A DNA stretch of 64,000 nucleotides from Mesobacillus subterraneus. GTDB lineage: Bacteria > Bacillota > Bacilli > Bacillales > Cytobacillaceae. This document shows, one piece after another, positions 19,640-64,000 of this stretch. Position 1 is the first letter of the stretch. Each line of letters opens with the position of its first letter. The stretch lies in assembly GCF_020524355.2 (NCBI RefSeq), contig NZ_CP129019.1, forward strand, positions 2,170,001-2,234,000. The letters are read 5' to 3'. A program made the translations under genes and the position numbers. Below the pieces are notes generated by a model that saw only the letters and a list, made by a program, of their open reading frames with translations, searched no databases and was not told the DNA's origin.

Positions 19640-19865
19640 AATAAAAAAGCATAAAGAGTCCTATATAAGGACGTCTTTATGCTAATAGACGTGGTACCAC
19701 CTTAGTTCAACATTCATTTAGAATGCCCTCTAAAAGTTTGTATCGGAACGACCCGGTTAGTTTTTTCGCTAACATCTCCGTGGCAGGGTTCAATAAGGAG
19801 GGGTGATATAGCTTTCAGCCAAGGCTATATTCTCTGCATTCACAATCCTTATTTACTTGATCACA
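19640..19865 (-). promoter_or_regulatory. T-box leader controlling proS
   Basis: Reading the minus strand, AATAAGGA/TCCTTATT closes Stem I. The side facing the specifier loop reads CACCCC and can present CCC or CCU, both proline codons. A GTTAG/CTAAC hairpin follows, then the conserved T-box AAGGTGGTACCACG (about 19683-19703). A terminator AGCATAAAGACGTCC / GGACTCTTTATGCT with T6 precedes the gene. Uncharged tRNA-Pro would promote antitermination. Confidence 0.9.
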
Positions 19866-20211
19866 TCATTGATTACATATATATAAATAAATATATCAAG
19901 TTTCTAACAGGAATTCAAATTGAAGCAAAAAAATGCACCTTTTGTTACGAAAACAACTGAGAGCAGTAATTCCCCAACTGGTCGTTGGAACCTATTCTAC
20001 TGCAATTAACCGAGTGAAAATAACATTAGTTAATGAACGCAACCGGTTCGGTTTTAAAGAACAAAAAAAGGATTCACGGCGCTTTTCGCACGGTAATTCC
20101 CAGTTAAATCAGCCGAAGCTTTAGCAGTAAAATTAGCTCAAAAAAACTCGAGCCAATATACTCCGATCCTGTTTTATAGGAGCACTTTGTTAAAGATTAG
20201 TACCCTTTAGT

Positions 20212-59118: not shown

Positions 59119-60136
59119 CTAAACAATACTGCGCCCGCTTTTTCCAAGAGCGTAGTATATGCCATGCTGCAGTGTGTGCAGACATTCATATTTTTTTCAA
59201 GTTGCTTAATGTTTCTGTAATCACCATCGCCAGTTCGGCGGAAATCCCTACAAGGATCACTTCTACTCCGAGCAATCTGGCCGCTGAACCTAATTTGTCG
59301 ATCAACTCGGCTGTGTAAGGTGAGATTTCCTTATTCAATCCAGTGAGGTCGAGTAAGACGTACTTTGCTTGATATTTTGGCAGATTGTTCAGCGTGTTCA
59401 TGATCAAATCCTCGGCACGATCTTCATCGTATCTGCCGATTAAAGGGACAACGACAATTCCATCAAGCACTGGAATGAGCGGAGATGATAATTCTTTCAC
59501 CAAATCCTGGAGCATCTTAGTTTTGTCCGCCACGAGGCTTTCCAGTTGCCTAATTTGCTTGGCTTCTTGCCTCCTCGCCATTTGCCAAATGCTTTCTTGT
59601 ACATCCTTATCGGAAGGGAAATATTCCACAACCGTATATGGGTTGGTATCATTCTGATACTCAATGATTTTATACCAGAAGTTCCTGCCAAACAAGCCAG
59701 TAAAAACACCAGCATAATGCGCCGGAACGAAAATCCCTTGTTTTTCCTTGTCACCAAGTTTGTTCATCTTATATTCCCAGTCATCTTTAATGAATAAAGT
59801 AAAATTCTTGGTTTCAACATCCATTTTTTCTACTCTCACATAACCCCAGCCTGCTGGTATGTATGTATCCGACACCCATTTCACCAAATTGGATGTATCG
59901 ATTTCCTTCAGTTCCTTAAAGCCTTCACCGACGATGATTCCCTGTCGGAACCCAGTCGCTTCAAGTACCAGATTCGTTGCCTCTTCGCCTGTAATTTCAT
60001 TAATGGTATCGAAGAAGGTTTTCATGGCAGAAACCCAGAAAAAAACAACATCTCCTCCTTCAAATAACACTTCTCCAGTATTTAAATCCCACTTTATTTC
60101 CACACCGCCAACAACAATATCCTTTTGCATCTCCAC
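59119..60136 (-). pseudogene. RsbR-like STAS protein with V4R-like sensor, C-terminal frameshift
   Basis: Paralogue of the gene at 25074. N-terminal sensor (about 15-150) has LEATGFRQGIIVGEGFKELK, AGWGYVRVEKMDV and GIFVPAHYAGVFTGLFGRN. A linker is followed by STAS (from KELSSPLIPVLDGIVVVPLI, with DLTGLNKEISPYTAEL). The frame stops at 59186 after NLKKI. One A fewer in the A7 run 59191-59197 continues YECLHTLQHGIYYALGKSGR to a TAG at 59119, matching the paralogue's LQQGVEYAIQ end. The indel may be an artefact. Confidence 0.85.
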
Positions 60137-62669: not shown

Positions 62670-62995
62670 ATTCAAAATAAAAAAAGCGCAAGCACCTTGT
62701 TCAGCCGCGAAAATCGCTGGAGGGCCTGACAGTGAAGTCGTTCTTTGACTTCATTGGCAGGACTGAACTCGAAAAGTATAGCCGACTGTCCAGAAACGCA
62801 GAAACTGGAGACTCCGACAAAGAAGCGCTTTTTGCTTCTGCCGGCGGAGTTGAAGTTTCGGAGTTTCTAGGAGGCGACACTAGACTAGCGTCTCGAGGAG
62901 TTAGGAGCCACAGCCAGACTAGCGTCTCGAGGAGTTAGGAGCCACAGCCAGACAAGCGACTCGAGGGGCTAGGCACTGGAGCTGGACACTAATCT
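62670..62995. repeat. Intergenic element with internal 34-bp tandem repeat
   Basis: The tract starts AAAAAAAGCGCAAGCACC and ends CACTGGAGCTGGACACTAAT. It looks like a family of Bacilli intergenic elements with fixed ends (recalled from general knowledge, not searched). Inside, GACTAGCGTCTCGAGGAGTT with AGGAGCCACAGCCA is tandemly repeated at 62883 and 62917, with a diverged copy at 62951. It also holds GAAGTCGTTCTTTGACTTC and AAGTTTCGGAGTTT hairpin-like parts. Frames through it are not credible genes. Confidence 0.75.
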
Positions 62996-63020
62996 AAGTA
63001 CAAAATTTAATACTTTCAGT

Positions 63021-63047
63021 AAAAAAAGAGGCAAAAAGCCTCTTTTT
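63021..63047 (-). terminator. Rho-independent terminator of the glutaredoxin-like gene
   Basis: AAAAAGAGGC / GCCTCTTTTT with a 5-base loop, bidirectional. Confidence 0.9.
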
Positions 63048-63055
63048 AGTAATGA

Positions 63056-63289
63056 TTATTTTTTAACATACTGCATCAGTGTATCCGGGTCAAAACCAAG
63101 AACCCAGTTGCCGTTAACCTTCGTTTGCGGCACACCCATCTGACCTGTTTCTTCAACCAGCTTTTGTGCAGCAACTTGATCGTTTTGTACATTCACTTCT
63201 TTGTAGTTTATTCCTTGACCCTCAAGGAATTGTTTCATCATTGTGCAGTAAGGTCAAGTATTCGTTGTATAAACAGTAATATCGTTCAT
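63056..63289 (-). CDS. Glutaredoxin-like thiol-redox protein with in-frame TGA at the active site; candidate selenoprotein
   Basis: 78 codons from ATG 63289 (AGGAGG eight bases upstream) to TAA 63056. It reads MNDITVYTTNT, then TGA (63256-63254, codon 12), then PYCTMMKQFLEGQGINYKEV, the MGVPQT cis-Pro loop (GVPQTKVNG) and GFDPDTLMQYVKK. The TGA stands exactly where the first Cys of CPYC belongs; the second Cys is present. Everything after the TGA is intact and family-like, so it would be read as Sec-Pro-Tyr-Cys if decoded. A SECIS-like hairpin follows at the right distance. An ATG (63241) after the TGA could start only a truncated protein lacking the first beta strand and that residue. Sec decoding needs SelA/B/C/D elsewhere. 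A TGC/TGT-to-TGA mutation or base error is the alternative. Confidence 0.72.
63210..63230 (-). promoter_or_regulatory. Candidate bacterial SECIS hairpin
   Basis: Minus strand: ATTCCTTG AGGGT CAAGGAAT, a perfect 8-bp stem with a 5-base loop having G at loop position 2. The loop begins 31 bases after the TGA. Bacterial SECIS elements lie just downstream of UGA, with the apical loop about 16-37 bases away and a G among the first two loop bases. The hairpin is inside codons 23-29, so it must also encode protein. Confidence 0.65.
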
Positions 63290-63429
63290 ACTAAATGCCT
63301 CCTCAAATTTTTTATACCCTATCATGTATTATCCCTATTATGCTAAATTTAGGCAAAAATGAATCACCGGGATATCTATGTTTTTCCCTAATACACTGAA
63401 AAAAAACAACATAAGAGGTATTATTATAG

Positions 63430-63631: not shown

Positions 63632-63705
63632 TTTTTTGCTGTCGATCAGCAAACAGCCGAACCGAAACACCAATACCATGTCCAACCCATCGTAAAGATT
63701 TGATT

Positions 63706-63815
63706 TTATAGCGAGTTTCTCTTTTTTATAGCGATTTTTTTGTTTTTATAGCGAAATTCTCTTTTTTATAGCGTTTTTTTTGTTTTTATAGCGAAATTCT
63801 CTTTTTTATAGCGAA
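63706..63815. repeat. Intergenic array, exact 20-bp period, six units
   Basis: TTTATAGCG recurs with GCG at 63711, 63731, 63751, 63771, 63791 and 63811. Units alternate between GCGAAATTCTC-type and GCG(A)TTTTTTTG-type, giving a 40-bp higher-order unit. The rest to 64000 shows nothing recognisable. Confidence 0.9.
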
Positions 63816-64000
63816 TTGGTAATTCAGCTTGTTTTTTTCCAGTTACATTTTGATAAAATATGGTTGTTCTCGTATAGATTGTAGTTAGAATCCTAAAACC
63901 GATTTTCACGTGATAAAAGCCATTTTGTATTTCGTTATTAAGGTGCAGGCGCTTTTCACATAATAGATCTTTAGTTTTGAAAAGAAAAATGGATCATTCA

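Follow-up and report, generated by a model that had tools for sequence, protein, structure and literature searches.

The window analysed here is a 64,000-nucleotide stretch of the 4.79-Mb single-contig genome of Mesobacillus subterraneus. On its reverse strand, positions 63056..63289 hold a gene for a glutaredoxin-like protein of 77 amino acids that runs from ATG to TAA and contains a single internal stop in frame, a TGA at residue 12 (63254..63256, reverse strand). The peptide reads MNDITVYTTNT-U-PYCTMMKQFLEGQG... (63289..63056), the frame after the U also being given as MNDITVYTTNT-U-PYCTMMKQFLEGQGINYKEVNVQ.... The TGA, a putative selenocysteine (Sec) codon, forms the first residue of a UPYC motif whose second Cys, residue 15, is encoded by TGC at 63245..63247 of the same strand, as placed by the reading frame and the codon alignment. 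A ribosome-binding site, GAGGAGG, is read upstream of the ATG (63298..63304, reverse strand), and just 3' of the gene (63020..63049, reverse strand) the sequence shows, by eye, a terminator-like inverted repeat that carries a run of T. Also, the transcript can form a SECIS-type hairpin, ATTCCTTG-AGGGT-CAAGGAAT, at 63210..63230 of this strand. A sequence-only reading of this DNA had claimed a 77-residue glutaredoxin frame with TGA as its sole internal stop, the replacement by that TGA of the nucleophilic Cys of CPYC, a hairpin with an AGGGT loop 31 nt from the TGA, and a strong ribosome site with a downstream terminator. Translation of 63289..63056 and the Cys aligned at this position in homologues agree with the first two, the hairpin lies exactly as claimed (63230..63210 in mRNA sense), and a ribosome-binding site and a terminator-like repeat flank the gene. 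Two further repeats are seen by eye in the vicinity, 'gcgtctcgaggagttaggagccacagccag' at 62860-62980, beyond the signal peptidase gene, and 'ttttttatagcga'-like units in the AT-rich interval 63705-63820. A T-box leader (102.2 bits) occurs at 19664-19878 of the window.

In profile searches the protein matches the glutaredoxin domain PF00462 with 69.8 bits (cut-off 22.9). Its best NCBIfam match, with U entered as C, is the YruB-family glutaredoxin TIGR02196 (residues 4-75, 87.6 bits, just short of the curated cut-off of 88.55). Glutaredoxin 3 (TIGR02181, 58.7 versus 90) and UXX-star (NF041212, 49.1 versus 66) fall below theirs. The UXX-star families (NF041212, NF041114, NF041211, NF047338) are likewise small glutaredoxin-like (seleno)proteins, and the window protein scores below the cut-offs of all four. 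Among solved structures the nearest chains are 7c10 and 7c12, each named only Glutaredoxin. A Sec glutaredoxin of Clostridium sp. OhILAs / C. oremlandii has reportedly been described (Kim 2011, Lee 2014). That protein reportedly shares with the one reported here the PF00462 domain and a UxxC active site. The host there is clostridial; here it belongs to a Bacillaceae lineage whose genome also encodes a Cys twin.

Sec-containing relatives are documented elsewhere. A Sec-containing 'Distant Grx-like protein 1' is placed under TIGR02196 in PMC9312934; it has UxxT, however, and the window protein UxxC. Sec glutaredoxin with UxxC figures as a verified Sec family in PMC13188914, and Table 2 of PMC1794560 counts three selenoproteins of three families in Bacillales, so that Sec use in the order was already known in 2006. 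Literature searches for Mesobacillus selenocysteine and Neobacillus selenocysteine gave no match, and supplementary tables may still name such genes. Among the 120 matches listed of 397, three proteins of 61 amino acids (P0065, P0069, P0105; 92-95% identity) start after the TGA; these near entries are truncations, and the gene therefore looks overlooked. Very probably, the Mesobacillus gene is an added member of a known Sec glutaredoxin family, the searches made having turned up none in print for this lineage.

The genes for Sec synthesis and decoding, selB, selC, selD and selA, which the sequence-only reading had named among its checks, are all present in the host genome, selA being frameshifted in this assembly. 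The profile search recovers selB with 364.4 bits, over its cut-off, and the tRNA-Sec gene, about 39 kb outside the window, scores 56.3 bits (gathering 47) and is typed SeC with anticodon TCA. The selD gene carries its own in-frame TGA (AG-U-GCK). Internal TGAs also occur in a formate dehydrogenase alpha gene (771 bits, over the cut-off) and in an FdhA-like gene (209 bits, under the cut-off), at loci L154 and L158, and in both a GGUCU-loop hairpin lies 18 nt downstream of the TGA. Together with SelD, FdhA and the FdhA-like protein, the glutaredoxin thus brings the candidate selenoproteins of the genome to at least four.

The selA gene (L053 7435-8875; G000:C1:1845435-1846875) is split by a frameshift into two overlapping frames. 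It is uninterrupted in 18 of the 21 genus genomes (18/20 excluding the window genome); besides the window genome, the exceptions are two drafts of lower quality (87% and 66% complete). A neighbouring ATPase gene and a dehydrogenase/epimerase-like gene beside selD look split too (L054 9055-9823 and L053 4897-5842). The ATPase open frame spans 101 amino acids here versus 190-288 in the stretches of seven relatives, some of which end at the stretch edge. Since these neighbouring genes are split as well, indel errors in the assembly are the likely cause of the selA split. Alternatively, selA may really have been lost in the window strain, which could then not make Sec.

TGA forms were counted in genomes of the genus, the GTDB family and a named set, locus L124 being left out of the counts. 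The TGA form is kept in 20 of 21 genus genomes, a set that includes M. selenatarsenatis SF-1, and the lone miss is the 66%-complete genome; tRNA-Sec was likewise found in 20/21. A sequencing error at the TGA, as a possible cause, is ruled out by the recurrence of the same codon in these genomes. Across the family, with SelB scored at E <= 1e-70, the TGA form occurs in 40 of 193 genomes, all 40 of which have SelB, and in none of the 23 SelB-less ones. Among the named genomes (50 of the 61 first listed, a set that overlaps the family set and is no independent test), SelB occurs in 32/32 with the TGA form versus 9/18 without it. Of 14 control genomes, those of E. coli and M. jannaschii were the two with a SelB match at the same threshold. 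By itself the tRNA-Sec model is unspecific, 5 of the 14 controls scoring above its cut-off. Three of these five, Caulobacter, Thermus and Thermotoga, are not known to be Sec users. Records L058, L098 and L095 hold Bacillaceae-like sequence under titles that name Chryseobacterium sp. ISL-80 and Pseudomonas sp. ISL-84, and look mislabelled.

SelB was present in 170 of the 193 family genomes, and the expectation of the earlier reading that Sec use is rare in aerobic Bacillaceae does not hold in this family. This count sits better with the finding of PMC5029168 that Sec users occur in aerobes and anaerobes alike than with the statement of PMC13188914 that selenoproteins are rarely retained by aerobic bacteria.

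A second small redoxin of RPM-TGA-TDC type occurs in 17 of the 21 genus genomes. The eight loci read for it (L141-L148) share a GCGAAGGAGTT[T/C]CTTTCGC stretch near position 1000, and neither NF041212 over its cut-off nor the P0001 query found it in the window genome.

The hairpin of the window gene has a stem of 8-9 bp, an AGGGU loop, a TGA-to-loop spacing of 31 nt and an MFE of -9.8. In PMC13188914, bacterial SECIS elements are given a loop of 3-9 nt with a G in its first two bases, a stem of 4-16 bp, a spacing of 16-37 nt, an MFE <= -7.5, and the loop pattern N1-G-[G/U]-N-N2 with N1 and N2 pairing; the window hairpin lies within this model in stem, loop, G position, spacing and MFE. Within the genome, the spacing from UGA to hairpin is 17 nt in selD, 18 nt in FdhA and 31 nt in the glutaredoxin. 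Of the SECIS-like character claimed for the hairpin, the geometry thus stands, but taken alone the structure is statistically weak: 426 of 5000 random synonymous recodings of the same peptide reach a stem >=7 bp with an MFE <= -7.5, and 304 reach a stem >=8 bp. The fold z-score is -1.47, with 21 of 200 shuffles equally good, and the four TGA sequences folded range from -0.18 to -1.47 against their shuffles. Also, one of the 40 TGA forms has a rounded energy of -7 kcal/mol and so lies above the -7.5 of the SECIS model, while in 21 of the 53 Cys forms the rounded value is -8 kcal/mol or lower; the energies of the two classes overlap, and fold energy consequently does not separate them. Hairpin energy was thus rejected as evidence, being unexceptional beside shuffles and recodings and too little unlike that of the Cys forms. 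What lies beyond chance is not the single hairpin but the retention of TGA and hairpin together across species.

The codon comparison covered distinct sequences from the fetched loci, 40 of the TGA form and 53 of the Cys form. A stem >=7 bp is present in 40/40 TGA forms versus 3/53 Cys forms; the other 50 Cys sequences are without one, so that the hairpin is not shared equally by Cys orthologues. By the same measure the stem is of 7 bp in 39 of the 40 TGA forms, a longer perfect stem being peculiar to the window strain. The hairpin codons, TTC CTT GAG nnT CAA GGA, are each identical in 39-40 of the 40 TGA forms, whereas Leu, Gly, Gln and Val codons vary farther along these genes. In the TGA forms, normalised synonymous entropy is 0.013 at codons 21-26, against 0.282 at codons 13-20, 0.339 at 27-33 and 0.73 at 34-76. 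At codons 21-26 it reaches 0.85 in the Cys set, whose greater diversity means that it does not match the TGA set as a control. None of 100000 random draws of six other codons was as low in entropy as codons 21-26, a figure that is not a strict probability since the 40 TGA sequences are related, 19 of them coming from the genus set. Codon 24 alternates between Gly, Ala and Ser, a change confined to the loop, which becomes AGGGU, AGGCU or AGUCU, all three matching N1-G-[G/U]-N-N2. No compensatory pair changes were seen by eye in the stem across the TGA forms, covariation not being visible because the stem is nearly invariant. The hairpin is nearly frozen in the TGA forms, without the compensating changes that the sequence-only reading had looked to, and the support at the RNA level consists of synonymous constraint and of loop changes within the SECIS consensus, not of covariation.

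All 21 genus genomes also encode a CPYC paralogue (68-75% identity). A tree of 93 rows and 75 columns, with most forks open, implies 5 Sec/Cys changes, where shuffles give about 30. Four Cys rows (L075, L129, L130, L133) stand among its Sec rows, without firm support. Sequences with Cys from genomes G077, G212 and G081 have such a position in this poorly resolved tree. In Niallia endozanthoxylica (L075; L138 is the same sequence) the codon is TGT, the hairpin is still formed and the genome has SelB. PMC1794560 describes what remains of SECIS-like structures in Cys homologues from other families, so that a Cys codon with a leftover hairpin has precedent. The signal peptidase neighbour was matched at 16 of 19 genus TGA-form loci (the window's own included) and at 0 of 11 Cys-form loci; the named loci with a match are L056-L062, L099 and L125 only, the stretches being short and the window protein the sole query. 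A STAS-like gene (window 59186-60136) is located some 3 kb away from the Sec glutaredoxin; a gene related to it (54% identity) is near the Cys glutaredoxin (L051), which hints at an old segment duplication.

Several readings of the internal TGA can be weighed against Sec insertion. The TGA could have inactivated a Cys glutaredoxin whose work is done by the CPYC paralogue. The presence of that paralogue throughout the genus, the other broken genes of the window assembly and the damage to two of the 40 TGA forms (L101 from Salirhabdus, without an intact start region, and L099, frameshifted) point that way. Such a pseudogene would however be hard to reconcile with 40 distinct sequences that share this TGA and an almost unchanging hairpin, with the conservation of the protein despite drift at synonymous sites elsewhere in the gene, or with the AGGAG or GGAGG site found by eye 5' of the ATG in 39 of the 40 printed TGA-form sequences (L101 being the exception), and we regard it as highly improbable. 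No more credible is a product that starts only at Met17 or Met18. This protein of about 61 residues would correspond to the truncated database entries described above, yet it would be missing both the first strand and the CPYC motif, and so have no active site. It would also leave unexplained why 8 of the 11 residues upstream of the TGA are identical in 38-40 of the 40 TGA forms, why a ribosome-binding site precedes the first ATG, and why the gene co-occurs with SelB.

Finally, a near-cognate tRNA could decode the UGA with no Sec involved; the hairpin would then be incidental or have some other role at the RNA level. The 31-nt spacing, which exceeds that of the other SECIS-like elements of the genome, is compatible with this. 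Nevertheless, the recoded position is that of the redox nucleophile, homologues have Cys there, the genome has a Sec pathway and the TGA form is absent from every SelB-less genome of the 193, all of which makes near-cognate decoding very unlikely.

We hold it very probable, on comparative sequence grounds, that the gene encodes a Sec-containing glutaredoxin-like thiol-disulfide oxidoreductase with a UPYC active site, made by SelB- and hairpin-dependent read-through of the UGA.

Under Sec insertion, SelB bound to the hairpin would deliver Sec-tRNA(UCA) to the UGA and the ribosome would continue to the full 77 residues, while without selenium or SelB translation would end after 11. The Sec selenolate would be the attacking nucleophile and Cys15 the resolving residue, and the enzyme would work alongside the separate CPYC paralogue encoded elsewhere in the genome. 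The sequence data establish the frame, its TGA, the machinery genes, the conservation and the synonymous-site constraint; Sec insertion itself is an inference from these, as are the activity, reductant and substrate of the UPYC protein. The GFDPDTL surroundings seem closer to NrdH-type redoxins than to glutathione-binding glutaredoxins, and for this reason our guess for the reductant is thioredoxin reductase or bacillithiol.

A broader proposal, which we put forward tentatively and consider less likely than its opposite, is that in Mesobacillus the two glutaredoxins, Sec and Cys, act as isozymes whose use depends on selenium, that the lineage displays stages of a trade between them, and that one SelB serves hairpins at spacings from 17 to 31 nt. 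With selenium present the UPYC enzyme would be made; in its absence the UGA would act as a stop, only the leading 11 residues would be made and the CPYC paralogue would take over. The stages of the trade might include N. endozanthoxylica, with its Cys codon and its retained hairpin and SelB.

Members of the family are spore formers, aerobic or facultative. The occurrence of SelB in 170 of 193 genomes suggests that they keep Sec decoding broadly, and apparently use it for a small redoxin besides formate dehydrogenase and SelD. The presence of Sec and Cys copies in one cell, along with apparent Sec-to-Cys replacements, may offer a clean system in which to ask what selenium buys an enzyme, and how much spacing between UGA and hairpin one SelB tolerates.
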